A stretch of DNA of 21,977 bases from a virus. Position 1 is the first letter of the stretch; every line of letters starts with the position of its first letter. Below are positions 1 through 21,977 of the stretch, piece by piece. Made by a program: the position numbers and the translations under genes. The notes beneath the pieces are model-generated. The model saw only the letters and a list, made by a program, of their open reading frames with translations, had not been told where the DNA came from and searched no databases. The stretch is from positions 72,476 through 94,452 of the IMG/VR virus record IMGVR_UViG_3300037963_004589; one strand, given 5' to 3'.

Positions 1-841
1 TCCACTTTTGACGAGAATTAACCTCATAAGTTACTTTTGTCCATAAATCCGAATACCGTTTTACCCAATTATATAAATGATTATTTTTGTAATCCCACAG
101 TGATGCAGACCATGCCCTTGCATTATTATACGATATATCAAAGTCCCATCCTTGTTTTAAAAACAAAGGATATTTAATGTATTTAGAATTATCACCACCT
201 ATTAAATATTCTTCCTCATCGGTTTTTACAATACCCCTTACTAATGCTTCAAATTTAAAAGATTTAAATGGAATCTCATATAATGATGGACTTGGTGGTA
301 TTTCAATATAGGTAGTATGGCCATCAAATTGTAACACCTTTTTACTACCAGGGCCTTTTATCATATCTGGTTTATAATAACCCTTTTGATAACAACGCCA
401 AAATAAATCATCATCTTCCATACCCCAACCCCAATAGTTAGTGTGATAACCATTTACTTTTTCAAATTGTTCAATTGTAAATAAAACCACACCACCAAAG
501 TATTCTACATCTCTTAGTGTGTAATCCCATTGAGATAAGTATGCAGCAATTTGTTTTGGTGTTTCTCCTGGATGAGAATAATCACAATCATCTGTTGGTA
601 ACATATCTACATCGTGAAATGCTACATAATCACATCCATCGTTTTTTGCAGCAATAAATGCAGCATTTTTTGTACCACTACGATTAAATTTTTTATCATC
701 TACTTGATGTCCTATATAAATTCTAAAATCAATATTTCTTTCTTTGAAATATTCTTCTAAATATGGCACTAAAGTATCTAAATGTTTTTGTCTTACACCA
801 TCCCCAATATCTCTAAATGGAATACAAATACCCAACTTCAT
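1..841 (-). CDS. GT7-family galactosyltransferase-like protein with LamG-like insert (partial, C-terminus off window)
   Basis: This gene starts at 841 and runs off the window at base 1; 280 codons are visible. The N-terminus begins MKLGICIPFRD, as in beta-1,4-galactosyltransferase-like (GT7, GT-A fold) enzymes. Family marks are FNRSGTKNAAF (about 52-62), the metal-binding DVD in FHDVDMLP (75-82), YFGGV (114-118), and NGYHTNYWGWGMEDDD (130-145). From about residue 168 the protein leaves the GT fold and becomes beta-rich (KKVLQFDGHTTYIEIP), like the start of a LamG/jelly-roll domain. The order matches the downstream gene, so the two look like tandem paralogues. The start codon overlaps the stop of the upstream gene as ATGA, so translation is probably coupled. 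The expected role is transfer of a hexose from a UDP-sugar onto a glycan; donor and acceptor are unknown. The GT7 call is confident; the LamG call is less so because the domain is cut. Confidence 0.85.
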   Translation of the reverse strand, partial: MKLGICIPFRDIGDGVRQKHLDTLVPYLEEYFKERNIDFRIYIGHQVDDKKFNRSGTKNAAFIAAKNDGCDYVAFHDVDMLPTDDCDYSHPGETPKQIAAYLSQWDYTLRDVEYFGGVVLFTIEQFEKVNGYHTNYWGWGMEDDDLFWRCYQKGYYKPDMIKGPGSKKVLQFDGHTTYIEIPPSPSLYEIPFKSFKFEALVRGIVKTDEEEYLIGGDNSKYIKYPLFLKQGWDFDISYNNARAWSASLWDYKNNHLYNWVKRYSDLWTKVTYEVNSRQKW

Positions 842-2274
842 AAATTTACCTTTAGATGTGTAATGTTTCTTGTATTCTTTTCACTCAGTAATTCAAAATG
901 TAAGGTAGTTAATCCATCATTTTGTAAATTAGTTTTATTATTTGCTACTTGGTCATAAAAATGAACTTGGTTTAATCGTGTGCTTTCAGTTCTCCATCTA
1001 CCATTAAAATAACCATTTCGTTGATGTTTTTGTAATTCAAAACTACTATGTCTACGAAATGGTTTCATAATTTTTACATCAGTTAATTCCATTTCAGTTT
1101 TTGGAATACAATTTTCTGTCTTTGCATAAGAACGAGTATTAGCAGGATTAACTAAATTTATAACTTTACCATGTCTATAATCAAATTCTCTGTCAAGAAT
1201 ACAATGTTTCATATCATAATAAATTTTTAAGTTACTTGCAGAACTATATTGGCCTTGAGATGTTAAATAATTTATACCGTAATTATCATGTAGTTCAAAA
1301 ACTTCATTTCCTGCAAGACAGGTATCCCAATAACAAAAATCTTTTACTAAACCTCGATAACTTTTTATATCTCCTTCTCTAACTGGTATACCAGTTCCTA
1401 AATAAAAAAATTGTGGTTTAGAATCAAATACTTTTCGTTTAAGTATTTTTTGTCCAATCCTACGCCCATCTTGATACATCTTAAGAACTCGTGAACCTCT
1501 ATCATAGGTAACAGTTATTCTAGTCAATTTGGGTGGTGAGTGTTCAGAGGTGATTGTGTAACATTCCTTTTCCACATCCCAAATTTCAAATCTATATCTA
1601 TTGAATGAATTGTAACTTATTGAAGTATCCCAACCAGGTATACTGAATACACAATATTCATCGTGTGTTTTTTGATAATCAGGTATGATATCATCTGGTT
1701 TGAATGTACAATGTAATGTAAAATCTTGTTCTAAATCAATAGTATTTAAACAAGTCATATAGGATTCTTCACCATGAAGATATAAACCTGCATTAAATTC
1801 CTTTTCACTTTTATGTACTATAAAATCTGTACCTATTCCTTGTTCAGTAAGGCGTAGTAATAAGTCATCATCTTCAAATCCCCATCCCCAATACTCATTG
1901 GAGTATCCATTGATTCTCTTAAAAGTGTCAATTGGAAATAAAGTGACTCCTCCAAAATAGGTATCAAAAACTTCTTGTTTTCCACCCTTAAATACTGTTG
2001 CAAGGTGTAGTGGAACATCAGATGGAGAATAGTCCACACGAAGTGGTAACATATCTACATCATGAAAAACAACATACTCACACCGTTTTTTAAGTGCTTC
2101 ATTATAACCAATGTTCAGTAACTTACCACGATTAAATGGTAAATCATCATTTTGTTCAACTACGATTAGGTGAAAGGGAATATTACTTTCACCTAAGTAG
2201 TCTTTTATTTTAGCGGTAAATTTACGAAGATGAGTTGGTCGACCACGATATGGTACGATAACTCCAAGTTTCAT
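838..2274 (-). CDS. Beta-1,4-galactosyltransferase-like GT7 enzyme with LamG-like domain inserted in the fold
   Basis: The 478-residue protein has the full set of GT7 marks: VPYRGR (8-12), FNRGKLLNIG (47-56), HDVDMLP (71-77, metal-binding DVD), YFGGV (106-110), and INGYSNEYWGWGFEDDD (121-137). The FNR, DVD, GGV and GWG-EDDD blocks match animal B4GALT enzymes closely. Residues about 161-335 form a separate beta-rich domain resembling LamG/concanavalin-like folds (DFTLHCTFKP, RITVTYDRGSRVLKMYQDG, FFYLGTG, RGLVKDFCYWD). After it the GT7 C-terminus resumes: TRLNQVHFYDQV, then NDGLTTLHFELL (452-463) and a final ITHLKVNL, which mirrors the B4GALT ending DGLNSL...ITVDI. LamG is therefore an insertion, not a terminal fusion. 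There is no signal peptide or TM segment, unlike eukaryotic relatives. The inserted domain probably recognises the acceptor glycan (inference). The donor sugar cannot be assigned by eye. Confidence 0.88.
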   Translation of the reverse strand: MKLGVIVPYRGRPTHLRKFTAKIKDYLGESNIPFHLIVVEQNDDLPFNRGKLLNIGYNEALKKRCEYVVFHDVDMLPLRVDYSPSDVPLHLATVFKGGKQEVFDTYFGGVTLFPIDTFKRINGYSNEYWGWGFEDDDLLLRLTEQGIGTDFIVHKSEKEFNAGLYLHGEESYMTCLNTIDLEQDFTLHCTFKPDDIIPDYQKTHDEYCVFSIPGWDTSISYNSFNRYRFEIWDVEKECYTITSEHSPPKLTRITVTYDRGSRVLKMYQDGRRIGQKILKRKVFDSKPQFFYLGTGIPVREGDIKSYRGLVKDFCYWDTCLAGNEVFELHDNYGINYLTSQGQYSSASNLKIYYDMKHCILDREFDYRHGKVINLVNPANTRSYAKTENCIPKTEMELTDVKIMKPFRRHSSFELQKHQRNGYFNGRWRTESTRLNQVHFYDQVANNKTNLQNDGLTTLHFELLSEKNTRNITHLKVNL

Positions 2275-2280
2275 CAGTAT

Positions 2281-2469
2281 CTACTTCTTTTCTTCTTCAC
2301 CTACGAACTTGTCATGAAAGCGATACAAATACCATTGTATTCTCTCACTCCATTCTGCTTTATCAACATCTTCGAACCATATTGTAAGAGCATCAAGTAC
2401 ATTAGCAATCTTTTCAAGTGCTTTTACTTTTCTCTCTTCTAAAATTAGTTCTTCATTTGATTTTGCCAT
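2281..2469 (-). CDS. Small helical hypothetical protein (62 aa)
   Basis: This is a 62-residue protein of unknown function. It is charged and predicted mostly helical: a first amphipathic stretch (EERKVKALEKIANVLDAL, about 11-28) is followed by a Trp-rich segment (IWFEDVDKAEWSERIQWYLYRF) and an acidic/lysine tail. The start is supported by a TGAGG Shine-Dalgarno-like element five bases before the ATG, read on the minus strand. It lies between two glycosyltransferase genes, six bases before the downstream GT7 start, so it is probably in the same transcript. No enzyme motif is visible. It could be a small scaffold or accessory protein, but nothing in the sequence proves this. Confidence 0.65.
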   Translation of the reverse strand: MAKSNEELILEERKVKALEKIANVLDALTIWFEDVDKAEWSERIQWYLYRFHDKFVGEEEKK

Positions 2470-2516
2470 AGTAACCTCATGAGTTTAATTAATTAATATA
2501 ACTGTAATAAATATAA

Positions 2517-3365
2517 TCATAAACCACGAATATTCAATATTTTTTTAATTAAATGTTTCCAATATCTATATTCATCGTATTGTGATTCTCCTAATGATTG
2601 AAAATAATATTGCCTATCATTTAAATCAAATTTAAAATTTAAATATTCAAGTGATGATAACATCATCTGATATTCTTTAAAAAAAGATTTTCTACTTTTT
2701 GATTCACTAACTTCTTGTAATCGTTTTTTAACTGTTATATCCCATTTAAAATGATGAACTTGTGTAAAGTTATTTTCTACAGGATATCGTAATGGATGTG
2801 ATTTACCCCACGATGTACTTCCATCATCAAATTGTATAAAGTGTTGACCTGATACAACATTATGTTTACCTTTCAACAATGTAACTTTGTTTGCTTCTGC
2901 TTTACTCAAAGGATAACGAAAAAAACCACCTACTGGCATTTCTTTCCATACATTACAATCTATATCTATATCTACAAATTCTCCATTTTTTCCAATCCTG
3001 TCTACAAATCCACCTGTTACAAATTCATTTCCTAACTCCTCACACTCATCAACTATATCTGTTATTGGTTTGGAATAAATTTGTAACTCATCATCATCTG
3101 ATATAATCCACCAATCATCTGGTTTTAATGATGTGGTTTCATTGTAATAATGTGTAACTCGTTCCCAGTCAAATGGTTTTTCTTCCACAATTTTAAATGG
3201 TTTTAAGTTAAATTTATCTAAAATATATCTTGCCTTTTCTATAACAGGGTCATATCGATGGTGAGAATAAATAATAACAAAAAAATTATCCACTATTGGT
3301 TCATAATGTTTTATCATGTGATACAACATCGTAGTGTTATGTCCACAAACTGTTACTAAATTCAT
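2517..3365 (-). CDS. GT-A type glycosyltransferase (DDDE motif)
   Basis: The 282-residue protein starts MNLVTVCGHNTTML, followed by a Rossmann-like alternation typical of GT2/GT92-like glycosyltransferases that handle a distant acceptor (HMIKHYEPIVDNFFVIIYSH). The key motif is WWIISDDDELQ at residues 85-95; the DDDE run is the expected metal and nucleotide-sugar binding site. The C-terminal half contains His-rich segments (VHHFKWD) seen near the end of such enzymes, followed by a basic helical tail. No membrane segment is seen, so it should act in the cytoplasm of the infected cell. A GGAG element lies five bases before the ATG. Its start overlaps the stop of the SGNH-hydrolase gene (ATGA), so it belongs to the glycan-modifying operon. 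The exact CAZy family is not certain. Confidence 0.75.
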   Translation of the reverse strand: MNLVTVCGHNTTMLYHMIKHYEPIVDNFFVIIYSHHRYDPVIEKARYILDKFNLKPFKIVEEKPFDWERVTHYYNETTSLKPDDWWIISDDDELQIYSKPITDIVDECEELGNEFVTGGFVDRIGKNGEFVDIDIDCNVWKEMPVGGFFRYPLSKAEANKVTLLKGKHNVVSGQHFIQFDDGSTSWGKSHPLRYPVENNFTQVHHFKWDITVKKRLQEVSESKSRKSFFKEYQMMLSSLEYLNFKFDLNDRQYYFQSLGESQYDEYRYWKHLIKKILNIRGL

Positions 3366-4012
3366 CTGTACTCCAAGTAAGGTATTAACTTTTTAGCAAT
3401 AAGTTTATGACCATATTGACTTGGGTGTTTTTTATCAGATGCAAAAACTTTATCCTCATCTACTTTTAATCTACGATGGCCATCCCCACCCCATCTTTTT
3501 TCTGACATAAACCAATTAAAATCATTATCTTCACACCAATTATCAGTTATTATATCAAGTAAAGTATTATTTGGTTTACCCCATTCAATAAAATTAGGTA
3601 AAGATAATTGTTCTCCAATAATATAATCATAACCAAAAATTGGATTAAAAGCTTGAGTAATTTTAAAATTATAACCCTCTAATGATTTATAAAGGTCTTT
3701 TAATAAACTTGGCCATTTCTGTAAGATAATGTCAAAATCTCTTTTTAATGTTTTATTTCTCATGTGTATTTTTAAATTACTCTCATCTCGATGTGGTGTT
3801 GTTAATGCAACAATAATCATATCGTTTCGTTTGTTAATATTATATTTTGATATGTTTACCAAATTAATTATACCTTTATTATTAAAACCATTCCAACCCA
3901 TATTATAATCTTCTAATTTAAAATAATCAGCTATGTGTTTGGTGAAAGTTTCATTTCTATTCACACCCTGTCCATGCACCCATGAATCACCAAAAGACCA
4001 TAACTTACCCAT
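3362..4012 (-). CDS. SGNH/GDSL-type hydrolase
   Basis: The 216-residue protein opens with LWSFGDSWVHGQG: the GDS block I of SGNH hydrolases, with Ser10 the likely nucleophile. A block-II-like segment follows (MGWNGFNNKGI, 38-48). The end carries the expected catalytic Asp/His pair in SDKKHPSQYGH (Asp193, His196). Enzymes of this type remove or move acetyl or other acyl groups on sugars and lipids. There is no signal peptide or TM segment. The start overlaps the sulfotransferase gene by eight bases, and an AAGGAAG element precedes it at good spacing. Placed among glycosyl-, sulfo- and methyltransferases, the most likely substrate is an acyl group on a glycan (inference). The block III Asn is not obvious, so the catalytic set is not fully confirmed. 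Confidence 0.78.
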   Translation of the reverse strand: MGKLWSFGDSWVHGQGVNRNETFTKHIADYFKLEDYNMGWNGFNNKGIINLVNISKYNINKRNDMIIVALTTPHRDESNLKIHMRNKTLKRDFDIILQKWPSLLKDLYKSLEGYNFKITQAFNPIFGYDYIIGEQLSLPNFIEWGKPNNTLLDIITDNWCEDNDFNWFMSEKRWGGDGHRRLKVDEDKVFASDKKHPSQYGHKLIAKKLIPYLEYR

Positions 4013-4601
4013 GTAAACTTCCTTTATTACTGTGTGGAAATGTAGTATCTGGTATATCTTTATTCAAATAAGGACAAAGTTTATCCCACCCATCACCTTG
4101 AGTAATATTCATTTCCAAATAAGTTATGTTTAATTTTTTTAACCATAACAGATTACTCGTATGTTTAAAATATGCTTTTTCTTTCATCCATTTTTTTTGA
4201 TATGTTGGATAGTTTTCAAATGTTTTCTCATCACCTACACCCAACCAATTCCAACTATTATAATGTTTGTTTTTTATATCTCTAATTTTATGTCGTAATA
4301 CAGAATCTACATATTCATCCAAATCTCGTGTAAGTGAAATATACTTTGCAGTTGGATTTTCATTTACAAGATGTGAAAATACAATTGGTTCAAAAAATGG
4401 ATAATCAACATAACAATCATAATCATCTAAATTATGTAATATAGGATTTTGATTTTCTATATTTGATTTTATATTATCTAAAATTGTAAAAAATTTATCA
4501 AATGTAATGCCTGTATCTAATACTTTATACCCAAGTATTTGTAATGCATCAGTAAGAGATTTAGTACCTGATTTATTATATCCTAAAACAAATATTTTCA
4601 T
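4005..4601 (-). CDS. P-loop sulfotransferase-like protein
   Basis: The 198-residue protein begins MKIFVLGYNKSGTKSLTDAL. The GYNKSGTKSL segment is the 5'-phosphosulfate-binding loop typical of PAPS-dependent sulfotransferases, followed by the usual helix and ILGYKVLDTG. A second site, KYISLTRDLDEYVDSVLRHK (about 90-109), fits the 3'-phosphate-binding Arg and Ser of the family. At about 200 residues it is compact compared with many family members. The likely reaction is sulfate transfer from PAPS to a hydroxyl on a glycan or small molecule. It overlaps the methyltransferase upstream (ATGA) and the SGNH gene downstream, so it is co-translated with a sugar-modifying set. A phosphotransferase that shares the P-loop is a less likely alternative. 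Confidence 0.8.
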   Translation of the reverse strand: MKIFVLGYNKSGTKSLTDALQILGYKVLDTGITFDKFFTILDNIKSNIENQNPILHNLDDYDCYVDYPFFEPIVFSHLVNENPTAKYISLTRDLDEYVDSVLRHKIRDIKNKHYNSWNWLGVGDEKTFENYPTYQKKWMKEKAYFKHTSNLLWLKKLNITYLEMNITQGDGWDKLCPYLNKDIPDTTFPHSNKGSLHG

Positions 4602-5320
4602 TTTTTTCTAACGAGTGTTAATCCAGTAGAACTTGGTTTATCTTTAATTATACCATGATTAAAAAAATTAAATACTTCAAATTTTCTTTTATCTATTGTT
4701 TTTACAAATTTACTTGGACCTGTTAAATCATCTCCCTCATGTCCATCTATTTCTGTAAAGTTTTCAACATAAGATTTATCAGTATCGTGTATTGTAATTA
4801 TTCCACCTTTATTCATTATAGTTGTATATAAATCAAAATCCTTTTTCACACCATCAAAGGTGTGATTTGCATCTATGTGTAACAAATCAATTTTGATATC
4901 TTGTTTTACAAAATAATTATGATATGCAGTTTCAGTAGTTTCTTTTATAAATTTTGGTGTAAAATGTCTTCTGAATACACTATCTTTATCTTCCCAATCA
5001 ACTTCTCCATTAAAGCCATTACATGCATCTACAATATAGGTTGAACCATTATCTCCCCATTCCATTGTTACATCGTTGTAAAATCCCTCTTGTGATAAAT
5101 CATATCTTGCTTGAGTCATTATCCTCGGTATGTATCCACCACCACTTCCTAAACAGACTAATGTTTTTAATTTGAAAAAATTAATCAAAGTATATATAAT
5201 CAACCCATCACCCAAATGTTGTTCGGTTGCACCATGTGACCAACGATAAGGAACATCCTCACCCTCGTTTGTTGTTATATATCCTTTTATATAATCATAA
5301 TTTAATAAACTATTATCCAT
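4598..5320 (-). CDS. Class I SAM-dependent methyltransferase-like protein
   Basis: The 240-residue protein has a nucleotide-binding motif I (TLVCLGSGGGYIP, about 53-65), an acidic strand-2 region (STYIVDACNG), and a motif reading DLLHIDANHTFDGVKKDFDLY. It then has GGIITIHDTD, which matches the Methyltransf_24-type class I methyltransferases often found in sugar and O-antigen clusters. Related folds include cephalosporin-hydroxylase-like proteins, so an unusual chemistry cannot be excluded. The IDANH and HDTD acids may bind a metal, as in catechol-type O-methyltransferases. An AAGG element lies four bases upstream of the ATG. It follows the Hint-protein gene after 15 bases and overlaps the sulfotransferase gene. 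The substrate is unknown; a glycan hydroxyl is the natural guess from context. Confidence 0.78.
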   Translation of the reverse strand: MDNSLLNYDYIKGYITTNEGEDVPYRWSHGATEQHLGDGLIIYTLINFFKLKTLVCLGSGGGYIPRIMTQARYDLSQEGFYNDVTMEWGDNGSTYIVDACNGFNGEVDWEDKDSVFRRHFTPKFIKETTETAYHNYFVKQDIKIDLLHIDANHTFDGVKKDFDLYTTIMNKGGIITIHDTDKSYVENFTEIDGHEGDDLTGPSKFVKTIDKRKFEVFNFFNHGIIKDKPSSTGLTLVRKK

Positions 5321-5335
5321 AAAACCTTATATAAA

Positions 5336-6391
5336 TTAAAATGGATTGGAATCACTTCCTTTATTATGTACTAAAAATGTTTTTCCAAAATAAACATCTA
5401 ATGGTTCAACATCTATTTGAACCACTTCAAATCCATCTTCATCATCAATAACTTGTTCAAGTTTTGTAATCAAAACTTCCTCACCGTTTTTGTCCATCAG
5501 ATGTCCACCAACCAACATATTTGGTGGTAGATTCCACATCCAAATATTTTCACCTATTGGTTTATACAACATCTCGTGTTCACCAGTAATCATCTCTTCA
5601 CCATTGTTTATATTCCAATAACTACGAACAAAGTCAAAATTAATATCTTGTACACTTGCAGAATGTTGTGTGAATGTTTCTGTTTTTTCATCACCAAATC
5701 TACACTTTCTCCAATCATCTTCATCTTCATCTAATTGACCAGGCATATTCATTGATATTACCCAATCACCTATATCTAAATCTTCTACTTTCTTTGTAGA
5801 ACCATCTGCCATCTCAATAGGTGTTCCCTCAAGTAAACACGATGGTGAACCACCATATGCATCAACAACAGTAACTGCTTTATCTAAAAAAGTATTATAA
5901 TTAGTAGCATGGTCATTAAACCCATCTGATTGTCCATCTTCTTTAAAACTACAACTTATACCAGTAACAATATTATTTGTACCCGCTGGAAAAAAATCAC
6001 TATCATCACCTGTGCCTGTATTTGCGTTTGATATTGCAATTGCAGCAACACTTGCTGTAATATTATTTATTCCTGCTGAGATGTTAAAATCGTTACCAGC
6101 ACCTTTTGTACTCTTCCATTCAAAGTTATCATTCACACTACCTATTTTAGTTTTGAATCTCGAACCCTCACCACTAAATCTTAAATAGTATTCTTCCGTA
6201 GTTTCTTCCCAATGATATGCATATCCATCAACAGAATCTACTGAATCAATAGAAAAATCTGACATTTTTATATCAGTACCACCACCCGCGTGTTGTTTTA
6301 ATGAAGACTCAGAAGTGTAATCACTACGAGAAGAGGACACTGCTCTAGCAAGTTTTCCTAATGATAAGTTTTGTTTTGCTGCTGTAGACAT
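5336..6391 (-). CDS. Phage structural-like protein with C-terminal Hint (intein-like) domain
   Basis: The 351-residue protein has two parts. Residues 1-184 are a Gly/Ser/Asn/Asp-rich region with a segment common in phage structural proteins (SSLKQHAGGGTDIKMSDF). Residues 185-343 form a Hint domain. Cys185 begins CLLEGTPIEMADGS...VEDLDIGDWV (splicing block A); the block B TxxH is TGEHEML (Thr269, His272); the C-terminal block is VYFGKTFLVHN (His342, Asn343). Asn343 is followed by Lys and an eight-residue tail, not by Cys/Ser/Thr. This fits bacterial-intein-like (BIL) domains that cleave or rearrange themselves rather than splice cleanly. There is no homing endonuclease insertion. It sits next to the fibre and glycan genes, so a self-processing virion or fibre part is likely. 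The Hint call is strong; the role of the N-terminal part is inferred. Confidence 0.85.
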   Translation of the reverse strand: MSTAAKQNLSLGKLARAVSSSRSDYTSESSLKQHAGGGTDIKMSDFSIDSVDSVDGYAYHWEETTEEYYLRFSGEGSRFKTKIGSVNDNFEWKSTKGAGNDFNISAGINNITASVAAIAISNANTGTGDDSDFFPAGTNNIVTGISCSFKEDGQSDGFNDHATNYNTFLDKAVTVVDAYGGSPSCLLEGTPIEMADGSTKKVEDLDIGDWVISMNMPGQLDEDEDDWRKCRFGDEKTETFTQHSASVQDINFDFVRSYWNINNGEEMITGEHEMLYKPIGENIWMWNLPPNMLVGGHLMDKNGEEVLITKLEQVIDDEDGFEVVQIDVEPLDVYFGKTFLVHNKGSDSNPF

Positions 6392-6402
6392 ATTAATAAA
6401 TA

Positions 6403-7500
6403 TTAAGAATTATATATTCTCAGTAATGAATCTACCCACCGTTGTTTATCTCCGTATTTTTTATCTAAATATTCTCGAAGTGGAAATACATAGTCTCGTT
6501 TTTCATTAAGAGTCAAATCACATATATTTTTATATTGTTGATGAAATTCTTCTTTAGTAAATGCTCTAAAAGGGTATTCATATTCTGTCAACCAATCTTT
6601 TGATAATATAGGTATTTTACCAAAATCTAATGCTTGGAAAATACTATATCCAAATGGTTCATATATATGTGCAGAATGAGAAACACCCCAATCTCTATTA
6701 TAAAATTTTTCTAAATAATCATAATTAAATTTATAAATTTTCCAATTTGTAGTATCGGTATTTAAATTTTTTCTCCACCATTGAACATCTTTTGGGTCGG
6801 TTGTTAATTCACAAGATAATCCCTCTAAAAAATGTGGACATTTACGAGTTTCCATTCTTGCTGCAAAACCTATTTTATTGCTTTCAGTTACATCTTTATT
6901 GTGTTTGAATTCATAAAAGTTTGGTATGTGTTGAGTGGAATGTTTTAGTTTACCAGGATTTAAACCAATCCAAAATGGATTTTTAGAAATCTCACACAAT
7001 TCGTTTTCCCATTTTCTTTCCATATGAAAATGAAATGCATGTTCTAAATTTAAAACCATTGAGGCTTTCATTGCTAAATCAACCGATACATGAACTGCAT
7101 TACTATAGATTCTGTCTTGATTTTCAATTAAATATTTATGTGGTGAGTAATATCCATGTAGAATATGTATCCTGCGTGCATTTTTCAATAAATCTTGAAA
7201 TTTTTGTATATCATCCCCTTGCCAGTAATGTTCTAAATCATCTTTTAAAACTTCTTTATAACTTTTTTCTATTTTCTTATGAACTTGTCTACCAGTATTA
7301 CCTTTACCACCAGTCTTCACGCTATTTTTAAAAGTTTTAATTTGTTCTTGTGTTTGTTTTGGTTTGATTCTATGAATTAATAACTTTGGTTTTACTTTTA
7401 ATTTGGGTGCAATATTTTCAATCCAATGATTTACCCAAACATCTGCACCACCACCAACCATTGCACCACCACCAGTGCTATAGTATACATCATATTCCAT
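6403..7500 (-). CDS. GT4-like (GT-B fold) glycosyltransferase
   Basis: The 365-residue protein starts with a glycine-rich loop (YYSTGGGAMVGGGADVWVNHW), typical of the N-terminal domain of GT-B enzymes where a short title such as a name-like motif binds the acceptor. Further marks are HILHGYYSP (112-120), HIPNFYEFK (191-199), IGFAARMETRKCP (210-222), and the donor-binding EPFGYSIFQALDFGKIP (281-297), which is the classic GT4 E-x7-E-like region (EPFG...Q-A-L). A charged stretch near residues 47-90 is an insertion of unknown role. It is expected to be cytoplasmic, using a nucleotide-activated sugar. It starts one base after the 97-residue protein's stop, and is followed by the Hint protein after 11 bases. 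It probably acts with the other sugar enzymes on virion parts or host surface glycans. Confidence 0.82.
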   Translation of the reverse strand: MEYDVYYSTGGGAMVGGGADVWVNHWIENIAPKLKVKPKLLIHRIKPKQTQEQIKTFKNSVKTGGKGNTGRQVHKKIEKSYKEVLKDDLEHYWQGDDIQKFQDLLKNARRIHILHGYYSPHKYLIENQDRIYSNAVHVSVDLAMKASMVLNLEHAFHFHMERKWENELCEISKNPFWIGLNPGKLKHSTQHIPNFYEFKHNKDVTESNKIGFAARMETRKCPHFLEGLSCELTTDPKDVQWWRKNLNTDTTNWKIYKFNYDYLEKFYNRDWGVSHSAHIYEPFGYSIFQALDFGKIPILSKDWLTEYEYPFRAFTKEEFHQQYKNICDLTLNEKRDYVFPLREYLDKKYGDKQRWVDSLLRIYNS

Positions 7501-20233: not shown

Positions 20234-20682
20234 AATCTTGAACTTCCCATTACAAAAGCACCATTCATAGCTGGTGTGTATGCTAAATGGTATGTATTTC
20301 CATCCTTCATTAAATAAAAATGTGTTGGACCTGACTTTTCTATTTTATACCCACTAAATCCTTTTTTCATATCTTTAATAAAAGCTTCTAAAGGATATTC
20401 ATATAGTTTTCTGCCAGGTACTACACCATCTCCAACTTGATAATCTACCTCAACACCTTTTCTTTTTTCTCTATCAATTGGTTGTCCAAAATCTCTTGGT
20501 GGGGATATTTGAATATCATAAGTTTTCACTGTCTTATCTAACTTACCATATCCTAATTCCTTAGACCTTTTTTTAAACGCCTTATCAAAATCTCTTAAAA
20601 ATTGTTTTGATGCACCTTTCTTAGAATCTCTCATTGCACGAGTACTTGGTGTTTCTAATAATAAATCTTTTAACTTAATCAT
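20230..20682 (-). CDS. Hypothetical protein with MIKLKDLLLE N-terminal tag (150 aa)
   Basis: The start is set at 20682 rather than an upstream ATG at 20736. The 20682 ATG has TTGGAG seven bases before it and yields an N-terminus identical to the neighbouring PAP2 protein (MIKLKDLL); the upstream choice would add 18 residues that overlap the membrane-protein gene and break that match. The tag ends LLLE before Thr11, fitting an L-x-E prohead protease site. The rest is basic (RAMRDSKKGASKQFLRDF) with a beta-rich end (THFYLMKDGNTYHLAY). It contains no recognised catalytic motif. Length, charge and tag resemble internal head proteins of T4-like phages, which is an inference. It overlaps the membrane-protein gene by eight bases and the PAP2 gene by ATGA. 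Confidence 0.72.
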   Translation of the reverse strand: MIKLKDLLLETPSTRAMRDSKKGASKQFLRDFDKAFKKRSKELGYGKLDKTVKTYDIQISPPRDFGQPIDREKRKGVEVDYQVGDGVVPGRKLYEYPLEAFIKDMKKGFSGYKIEKSGPTHFYLMKDGNTYHLAYTPAMNGAFVMGSSRL

Positions 20683-20989
20683 CTGCATGCTCCAATAGTT
20701 TATTATCATTCTCTTGATTATTAAACCAAAAATCAATTACTTTGGCAAATGAACCAACAAATCCACCCAACATTAGTAATAGTATTTCTTTCCATCCATC
20801 AGTAACATCTTTACCTTGACTCATAAAAAATATCATAAGTGCAAGTATTAAAGAAAACATTCCTACTACAGCAATACTTACATACCACTTTCGTGATTGT
20901 CTGTATTCTATTAAATCTACTAATTTTACATTTATAAAATGTTTTTGATTTTGTCTAGCATCTTTTGTAGTTAAATCTTTAGCATCCAT
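20675..20989 (-). CDS. Two-TM membrane protein, possibly holin-like
   Basis: The 104-residue protein has a polar N-terminus (about 1-34) and two hydrophobic helices: WYVSIAVVGMFSLILALMIFF (about 35-55) and ILLLMLGGFVGSFAKVIDFWF (about 69-89). A charged tail follows (NNQENDNKLLEHADD). Two or three TM helices and a charged C-terminus of this length are typical of phage holins, and the LLGGFVG...DFWF...NKLLE pattern recalls holins of gene-transfer-agent type. No lysis enzyme is next to it, so the holin call is weak. Its start shares a base with the stop of the 48-residue basic gene (TAATG), so their translation is coupled. Confidence 0.65.
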   Translation of the reverse strand: MDAKDLTTKDARQNQKHFINVKLVDLIEYRQSRKWYVSIAVVGMFSLILALMIFFMSQGKDVTDGWKEILLLMLGGFVGSFAKVIDFWFNNQENDNKLLEHADD

Positions 20990-21135
20990 TATCTTCTACC
21001 ATATATTGATTTTTTTGTATTAGGATTTTTCTTTTTCCATTTCTTATGTTGATTTGATGTACGACCCTCTTGTTTCCACTTTTTATTTAAAGCAAGTCTT
21101 CTTTGCTTTTTCTGTTTTGCTTTTTTATTTGGCAT
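20989..21135 (-). CDS. Very basic small protein (48 aa)
   Basis: This 48-residue gene reads MPNKKAKQKKQRRLALNKKW and continues with EGRTSNQHKKWKKKNPNTKK to IYGRR. Twenty of 48 residues are Lys or Arg, so it surely binds nucleic acid or an acidic surface. It has no recognised fold. Its stop overlaps the start of the membrane-protein gene (TAATG), and a GGTGAT stretch lies about 12 bases upstream of the ATG. The good coupling and its place in an otherwise gapless operon make it likely to be real although it is short. It could be an internal head or DNA-condensing protein; this is a guess from charge. Confidence 0.6.
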   Translation of the reverse strand: MPNKKAKQKKQRRLALNKKWKQEGRTSNQHKKWKKKNPNTKKSIYGRR

Positions 21136-21147
21136 TTGTAATAAATA

Positions 21148-21801
21148 TCACCTTTCTGAAGATTTAACTAAATTACTTGAAACTTGTGAACTTAGTAATG
21201 ATTGTATAGTAAAGTATAAAGATGGATTTCTTTTCAACAAATCCTTAAATTCTCTCTGTTTCCAAACTAAACATATTGCATCGTATTTTACTCTACAAGT
21301 TGCAGTTGCAACCTTTTCAGTAAGAAAGGACATCTCTCCTACAAACTCTCCATCTTTAAGTTGAGCTATATCTTCACCATTAACTTGAACATCTACGGTT
21401 CCATTATATATAAGATATAAATCAGGTACAGGCATACCTTGAGTTATTATTCTCTGTCCAGATTTCAAAGTTACCCATTCTGCTGCTTTACTAATTTTAA
21501 GATATTCTACTGGTGTCATTTGTTGAAACAAAGTTTGATAGAGTTCTTCATTTCTATCATCCATTTTTACTTCTCGTTTCTCATATAGGATAACTCCTAT
21601 GTGATAAACATTTACAATAACGAATATAAGATTCCAATTAACTGCCAACCACATGGGTTCGGTAGGAATTGTATAATTATAAAATACTGAAAATAAACTA
21701 GCTAATATTGAAAGTAATCGTAACCATAGAATATCTTTTACAAGAAATGAAAAAGCAATTAATCCAAATGCTAAATGACCTGATAAAGTTGCGATGTCCA
21801 T
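21148..21801 (-). CDS. Popeye-like (POPDC-like) membrane protein with cyclic-nucleotide-binding-type domain
   Basis: The 217-residue protein has three hydrophobic segments in residues about 4-73 (GHLAFGLIAFSFLV, LRLLSILASLFSVFYNY, NWNLIFVIVNVYHIGVILY). A cytoplasmic beta-roll domain follows: GQRIITQGMPVPDLYLIYNG (115-134), VDVQV, and the phosphate-binding-cassette region GEFVGEMSFL (151-160). The order and the NWNLIFVIVNVYH...LYEKREVKM...LYQTLF run match animal POPDC1-3 (three TM helices, then the Popeye domain), including the ending CLVWKQREFKDLL...PSLYF. Canonical cNMP domains keep an Arg about eight residues past GEM/GEL; here that place reads Val-Ala-Thr, so classical cAMP binding is doubtful. 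It follows the thioredoxin-like gene by three bases. A role in membrane sensing is an inference. Confidence 0.8.
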   Translation of the reverse strand: MDIATLSGHLAFGLIAFSFLVKDILWLRLLSILASLFSVFYNYTIPTEPMWLAVNWNLIFVIVNVYHIGVILYEKREVKMDDRNEELYQTLFQQMTPVEYLKISKAAEWVTLKSGQRIITQGMPVPDLYLIYNGTVDVQVNGEDIAQLKDGEFVGEMSFLTEKVATATCRVKYDAICLVWKQREFKDLLKRNPSLYFTIQSLLSSQVSSNLVKSSER

Positions 21802-21804
21802 ACA

Positions 21805-21977
21805 TTAAAACACATCTTCAGATAAAACATCATCAATTGCACCTCTGATATCTTTGTTATCACAATCTAATTCCCCATCCATATCTGCTTTCCATGTTTC
21901 TTTCTTACTACCATCATAGAACAGAACCATAGATGGAAAGTTTCTTAATCTAAGTTTTTTTGTTACTTTTGGTGCTT
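21805..21977 (-). CDS. Thioredoxin-like protein, C-terminal end (partial)
   Basis: Only the last 56 codons are in the window; the start is past base 21977. The visible part reads RLRNFPSMVLFYDGSKKETW, then DMDGELDCDNKDIRGAIDDVL. The FPSMVLFYDG run has the cis-Pro and the strand-turn-strand of the thioredoxin fold (compare IPTLLLFKNG in E. coli thioredoxin), followed by the final helix. The CxxC active site would be upstream, off the window, so redox activity cannot be confirmed. The stop lies three bases before the POPDC-like start, so the two are in one transcript. Confidence 0.65.
   Translation of the reverse strand, partial: APKVTKKLRLRNFPSMVLFYDGSKKETWKADMDGELDCDNKDIRGAIDDVLSEDVF

Follow-up and report, generated by a model that had tools for sequence, protein, structure and literature searches.

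The phage gene described here encodes a 217-residue membrane protein that is a bacterial-type relative of the POPDC (Popeye) family, not an animal-type or canonical POPDC protein, and its Popeye-like identity is well supported. It lies in the window, by which we mean the whole stretch of DNA analyzed, namely the 21,977 bases at the end of an IMG/VR record of 94,452 bases. We further propose that the protein acts as a dimeric membrane receptor of a host nucleotide within a phage envelope/pilin module, and we give this proposal as a whole, family assignment included, a probability of about 0.5.

Reviews of the POPDC proteins describe the family as unique, give its range as hydra to man, and name bacterial CRP as the closest relative outside it (PMC4973886, PMC6952887). 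Our literature search, which covered titles and abstracts, mostly without subscription journals, returned no paper describing members in bacteria or phages, although the Pfam/InterPro entry may already list bacterial ones. What seems to be new is the joining of a POPDC transmembrane (TM) module to a GE-type cassette of a cyclic-nucleotide-binding domain (CNBD), Arg-less in phages, in proteins encoded by bacteria and phages. Such a family would give a group of heart-and-muscle proteins a prokaryotic relative, its bacterial and phage members would provide small, tractable models for POPDC, a family for which we found no solved structure, and the origin of the Popeye cassette from a GE-type one would become testable. 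The recurrence of a nucleotide-receptor-like membrane protein with phage prepilin-like and PilB-N-like genes suggests, in addition, remodeling of the infected-cell surface.

Gene and Protein Architecture

The open reading frame is intact and begins with ATG, and between it and the contig end lies a single upstream gene, itself cut by that end. A chance reading frame is excluded, because 33 other viral contigs in IMG/VR encode the protein at 66–82% identity and dN is far below dS within the phage family (e.g., 0.04 versus 0.6–1.3). The features of the gene and its product are as follows:

21148..21801, minus strand: gene of the POPDC-like (Popeye-type) membrane protein, 217 aa; intact ORF, PF04831 and PF00027 matches, 33 viral homologues
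21742..21795, minus strand: TM helix 1 (aa 3–20); AlphaFold2 helix and hydropathy
21670..21729, minus strand: TM helix 2 (aa 25–44); AlphaFold2 helix and hydropathy
21577..21651, minus strand: TM helix 3 (aa 51–75, with W56, N57, N64, and H67); AlphaFold2 helix and alignment
21490..21567, minus strand: cytoplasmic linker (aa 79–104), where the PF04831 match ends; TM half scanned alone
21226..21489, minus strand: CNBD (aa 105–192); PF00027 at 4.1e-16 on the CNBD half alone, Foldseek matches to HCN, CRP, and PKA CNBDs
21295..21354, minus strand: phosphate-binding-cassette region DGEFVGEMSFLTEKVATATC (aa 150–169); alignments, GE kept, canonical Arg absent, no DSPE or FQVT
21154..21225, minus strand: C-terminal alpha-C helix (aa 193–216); model, spacing compared with PMC9830914

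The original prediction, made from the letters of the sequence, had described three TM helices followed by a cNMP-type beta-roll, and this layout was borne out by the AlphaFold2 model (pLDDT 80.5) together with hydropathy peaks, which place the helices at residues 3–20, 25–44, and 51–75 ahead of the beta-roll CNBD. The segments that it had quoted as resembling animal POPDC proteins were located at aa 55–67 (NWNLIFVIVNVYH), aa 72–80 (LYEKREVKM), and aa 178–185 (LVWKQREF). Charged residues (K22, R28, and the YEKR that follows TM helix 3) point to a topology in which the short N-terminus would lie outside and the CNBD in the cytoplasm. Eight residues are invariant across 39 phage and cellular proteins (S18, R28, A34, W56, N64, G134, G155, and W180), so that TM helix 3 contributes two of them, W56 and N64, conserved in 39/39 homologues.

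Relationship to the POPDC Family

The whole protein exceeds the Pfam gathering thresholds of both PF04831 (POPDC1–3; 54.3 bits, threshold 28.1) and PF00027 (cNMP_binding; 57.3 bits, threshold 27.5). When the halves are scanned separately, the TM half (aa 1–104) matches PF04831 with 51.0 bits and 2.2e-13 over aa 7–95 (profile positions 5–95) and has no other credible match, and the only Pfam match of the CNBD half is the generic PF00027. Since the two halves match these profiles independently, the likeness to POPDC amounts to more than a shared cNMP fold, and, as judged from the profiles, it is carried by the TM module and linker, not by the promiscuous CNBD fold. PF04831 gave 0 matches in 14 control genomes.

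These results bear directly on a CRP- or HCN-type CNBD joined to unrelated TM helices, the reading against which the original prediction had set its own; it is ruled out by the TM half, which matches PF04831 and no other family. The structural side of that comparison was less informative: Foldseek with the model returned only the CNBDs of HCN, CRP, and PKA and covered no TM part, a search among viral models gave CNBD matches and no full-length relative, and a PDB sequence search found no POPDC structure and hence no POPDC TM part to compare. The claim of a Popeye-domain-like protein thus stands for the TM half, which by itself is recognized as PF04831, but DSPE and FQVT are missing, which rules out a canonical POPDC protein and leaves a relative of the family.

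The animal proteins POPDC1–3 (BVES/POPDC1, POPDC2, and POPDC3; PF04831) share with the phage protein the single-chain arrangement of three TM helices, a linker, and a CNBD in the cytoplasm, a PF04831 score above the gathering threshold that comes through the TM half, the hydrophobic spacing of the alpha-C helix, and an unusual cassette without the canonical Arg. The phage protein differs in lacking DSPE and FQVT while retaining GE, in having no variable C-terminal tail, and in belonging to a family encoded by phages and bacteria; moreover, whereas the extracellular N-terminus of POPDC is N-glycosylated (PMC6726836), TM helix 1 begins here at aa 3 and leaves an N-terminus too short for such sites. 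The bacterial cyclic-nucleotide-gated SthK and MloK1 and the HCN channels are likewise membrane proteins with a cytoplasmic CNBD, the part covered by Foldseek, but the phage TM half matches no Pfam channel-pore family and has only three helices. CRP/FNR regulators have in common with it a CNBD and dimerization through the C-helix, but the phage protein is membrane-anchored, ends with the alpha-C helix, and showed no DNA-binding domain in the Pfam scan.

The Cassette and the Alpha-C Helix

The cassette of the phage family reads DG(E/Q)F(V/I)GEMSF(L/I)T(E/D)KxATA(T/D/S)C and retains the classical Gly-Glu. The DSPE and FQVT motifs are crucial to cAMP binding by POPDC (PMC6562197); where DSPE would stand, the alignment places G-E-M-S (aa 155–158), of which the G and E recur in nearly all of the 39 homologues, and where FQVT would stand it places A-T-A-T (aa 165–168). 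The original prediction was right that the conserved cassette Arg is replaced, since it is absent from every phage member, in which A165 and T166 occupy positions G+10 and G+11. Where the Arg would fall can be aligned only to within one residue: G+10 carries no Arg in any homologue, and G+11 is R or K in 6/19 cellular members, for which reason we toned down the missing Arg as a family-wide trait.

Because the canonical phosphate-contact Arg is missing together with the DSPE and FQVT of POPDC, nucleotide binding may have been lost. The phage protein could then be a ligand-independent scaffold, which dimerizes and binds partners, for instance in superinfection exclusion. Such a reading is in keeping with the absence of the Arg from all phage members and with a TM module that is highly conserved (mean pairwise identity 0.80), more so than CNBD strands 1–5 (0.60), but conservation in the phage family peaks in the cassette itself (GEMSF...ATATC, 0.88), and animal POPDC proteins bind cAMP despite a non-canonical cassette (PMC6562197, PMC6952887). 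The high conservation of the cassette argues for a ligand site that would have been kept, perhaps an unusual one, and we consider a scaffold unlikely.

In POPDC1, the helix of the dimer presents L245, F249, I253, I257, and L261 (PMC9830914), and the phage alpha-C helix carries hydrophobic residues every four positions with equal spacing (L195, I199, L203, V207, and L211). The step from V217 to L245 in POPDC1 and that from A167 to L195 here both measure 28 residues (numbering as in PMC6562197 and PMC9830914), so that the register of the helix agrees once one allows for the variable loop of the cassette. On this basis, we infer that the protein probably dimerizes via its alpha-C helix.

Distribution and Origin

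Among the products of the record is a T4-type major capsid protein, which marks the contig as that of a phage. This capsid protein shares 52–58% identity with its counterparts in Flavobacterium phage immuto, Microcystis phage Mel-JY01, and an uncultured phage, and 55–72% with the capsid proteins of six further contigs that have the Popeye gene. The gene occurs in 1/23 examined contigs of the capsid lineage, the one being a Popeye contig found before, which is a lower bound since the contigs are fragments, and it looks like an accessory gene of this T4-like lineage. Neither the window protein nor its Bacteriovoracaceae homologue had a match among GenBank phages.

Full-length chromosomal homologues are found in a Bacteriovoracaceae MAG (41% identity) and a Phycisphaeraceae MAG (37%). 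Cellular proteins of the same size exceed the PF04831 cut-off in 13/291 Bdellovibrionota and 6/294 Planctomycetota genomes, and PF04831 exceeds its cut-off in 14/129 genomes of the Bdellovibrionota family to which the Bacteriovoracaceae MAG belongs. In a 39-row tree built from phage and bacterial sequences, the phage proteins form one clade (support 99/98) apart from the cellular ones, which would be consistent with a single capture of the gene by phages. A recent transfer from an animal is not supported, given the bacterial chromosomal homologues and the single phage clade, and the idea that the protein is a phage-specific oddity borrowed from animals gives way to the finding that bacterial chromosomes encode the same architecture. 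It is possible, although we hold this broader history only tentatively, that Popeye proteins did not arise in animals, that a bacterial family combined the POPDC TM module with a GE-type cassette, that animal POPDC proteins are derived from it or sister to it, and that phages took it up to control, in response to a nucleotide, a pilin/envelope module that they themselves encode.

The cellular genes sit among housekeeping genes, with neighbors conserved within subgroups (by eye, metallopeptidase-like, topoisomerase III-like or RecQ-like, and CBS-domain-like genes), and no recognized cyclase, defense, pilus, or lysis genes are found among the nearest of them. As a separate observation, in one Bdellovibrionota subgroup (L074, L076, and L077) the gene upstream of the cellular homologue shows, by eye, CBS-domain repeats and may encode a second nucleotide sensor.

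Gene Neighborhood in the Phages

The recurrent phage neighbors of the Popeye gene are envelope genes, pilin-like genes, and, in some lineages, lysis genes:

21805..21977, minus strand: secreted thioredoxin-fold-like gene, upstream of Popeye and cut by the contig end; identified through full-length relatives
20989..21135, minus strand: small Lys/Arg-rich gene (48 aa), downstream of Popeye; recurrent neighbor in 8 loci
20675..20989, minus strand: gene of a 104-aa protein with two TM segments; its cluster lies near Popeye in 22 loci, with weak matches to PHROGs of unknown function
L010:10863-12928, L004:3773-4910, L014:7801-8915, L015:13877-15930, L027:3625-5122, L034:11296-12429, and others: prepilin-like arrays; PF07963

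Two contexts can be distinguished. In the first, the Popeye gene is preceded by genes for a secreted 430-aa protein, a lipoprotein-like protein, an MshEN-like membrane protein, and the secreted thioredoxin-fold protein, and is followed either by prepilin-like genes or by the 48-aa gene and a holin-like gene; in the second, the order is the 104-aa membrane gene, Popeye, and a GH108 endolysin. The thioredoxin-like neighbor noted in the original prediction is real, and it ends 3 bases before the Popeye start; its cluster is found in 17 other loci besides the window and directly upstream of Popeye in 11. The copy in the window is truncated, however, and the complete relatives, which begin with a signal-peptide-like N-terminus, match thioredoxin weakly (E = 0.016) and lack CXXC, so that the product would not be a classical thiol oxidoreductase.

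The MshEN-like protein occurs in 16 loci (L020:8923-9606, L012:8966-9607, and 14 more), in many of them two genes upstream of Popeye, and consists of an MshEN-like N-terminus followed by a TM segment and a coiled coil; its best matches in a PDB profile search are PilF, PilB, and MshE (3.4e-8 to 8e-3), and Pfam gave no match over the cut-off. The prepilin-like genes form arrays of 1–4 (GFTLIELxMVxIILGILAAVAIPRY), together with a divergent GNSLAEFAVTT form, and often adjoin Popeye. A prepilin motif (N_methyl, PF07963 over the cut-off) is present on 13/20 Popeye contigs versus 0/22 contigs that share the capsid lineage but lack Popeye, an association with a Fisher p of 3e-6 (5e-5 among contigs 40 kb or longer) that overstates independence, the contigs being related, fragmentary, and in some cases near-duplicates. 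In the capsid-bearing Popeye subset alone, the proportions are 3/7 versus 0/22 (p = 0.01). The contig of the window, which ends inside the thioredoxin-fold gene, yielded no prepilin gene, and no pilus/T2SS-type assembly ATPase (PF00437) exceeded the Pfam cut-off on the Popeye contigs; partial, sub-threshold matches to this T2SS/T4P ATPase were not counted.

The second context raises the alternative of a regulator of lysis timing, in which Popeye would work with phage holin-like proteins and endolysin and a nucleotide level would be the cue for lysis. A GH108 endolysin (Pfam 2.9e-25; PHROG lysis) comes next after Popeye in 7 loci, usually with the 104-aa two-TM gene just before, and a GTA_holin_3TM-like gene lies near Popeye in 5 further loci. 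In more than half of the loci, however, the examined stretch contains no recognized lysis gene, the holin calls are weak (sub-threshold, E = 6e-4), the 104-aa protein, possibly holin-like, has no assigned function, and there is no lysis context around the bacterial homologues; we judge a role in lysis timing to be quite improbable.

Three loci (L034:10726-11064, L021:8773-9111, and L022) have, within two genes of Popeye, a gene whose 113-aa product combines a single TM segment with a region resembling the MscS beta-domain (PF00924, sub-threshold at E = 0.02), which suggests a mini mechanosensitive-channel-like protein.

Proposed Mechanism

In the mechanism that we propose, the Popeye protein would dimerize and bind a small host-made nucleotide such as cAMP, cGMP, or the like, and the CNBD would relay the ligand state by way of the linker and then the TM helices to a membrane partner. 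No class III cyclase (PF00211) was detected in the 20 Popeye-bearing viral contigs, which are fragments, and the ligand would thus be host-derived. As an accessory envelope gene, Popeye would help to control phage-encoded surface proteins (the prepilin-like, the PilB/PilF-N-like MshEN, and the secreted ones) or, alternatively, the host pilus or secretion machine that those proteins would use, and the outcome would be an altered surface of the infected cell. The envelope/pilin role is suggested by gene context, and the ligand and partner named here are likewise putative; that role is opposed by the lack of pilus genes among the nearest neighbors of the cellular homologues, by the lack of an over-threshold assembly ATPase on the Popeye contigs and of a prepilin gene on the window's own contig, and by the 7 endolysin loci, in which prepilins are several kilobases distant or not seen.

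A different use of nucleotide binding would be counter-defense, with the protein serving as a membrane decoy that soaks up cCMP, cUMP, or another immune cyclic nucleotide, or as a dominant-negative partner of Pycsar-type receptors. The best PADLOC match of the CNBD is to PycTIR and related TIR effectors (2.3e-16), and the layout of TM part and CNBD recalls PycTM, itself a membrane receptor for cyclic mononucleotides, but the match is limited to aa 97–207, no PycTM-type model matched, the conserved R97 kept in PsPycTIR is missing in the phages, a membrane receptor makes a poor sponge, and no conserved defense genes surround the cellular homologues, all of which makes this reading improbable to much the same degree as one based on lysis. 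That the protein is itself a Pycsar effector or defense gene is rejected on the absence of a class III cyclase from the 20 fragmentary contigs and on a PADLOC match to the CNBD only: compared with PycTIR and PycTM, with which it shares the CNBD fold, the phage protein has a TM part that matches POPDC only and lacks a cyclase partner (PycC), the cassette Arg, and a TIR domain. Nor did anything specific emerge for the earlier suggestion that the ligand is a nucleotide of host defense, as the 20 contigs encode no class III cyclase and the cellular homologues have no conserved defense genes nearby.

Other Features of the Contig

The gene at 5336-6391 of the window encodes a protein that ends in HNKG and whose C-terminal part has a match to a virion structural PHROG of phages and a weak one to Hint (intein/hedgehog) modules; it is possibly a self-processing virion protein. 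Positions 2-7500 of the window and the 40–80 kb part of the contig (L041 and L042) hold a long run of genes that, by eye, look like glycosyltransferases, methyltransferases, SGNH hydrolases, and radical-SAM proteins, as if forming a large island for surface-sugar or fiber modification.
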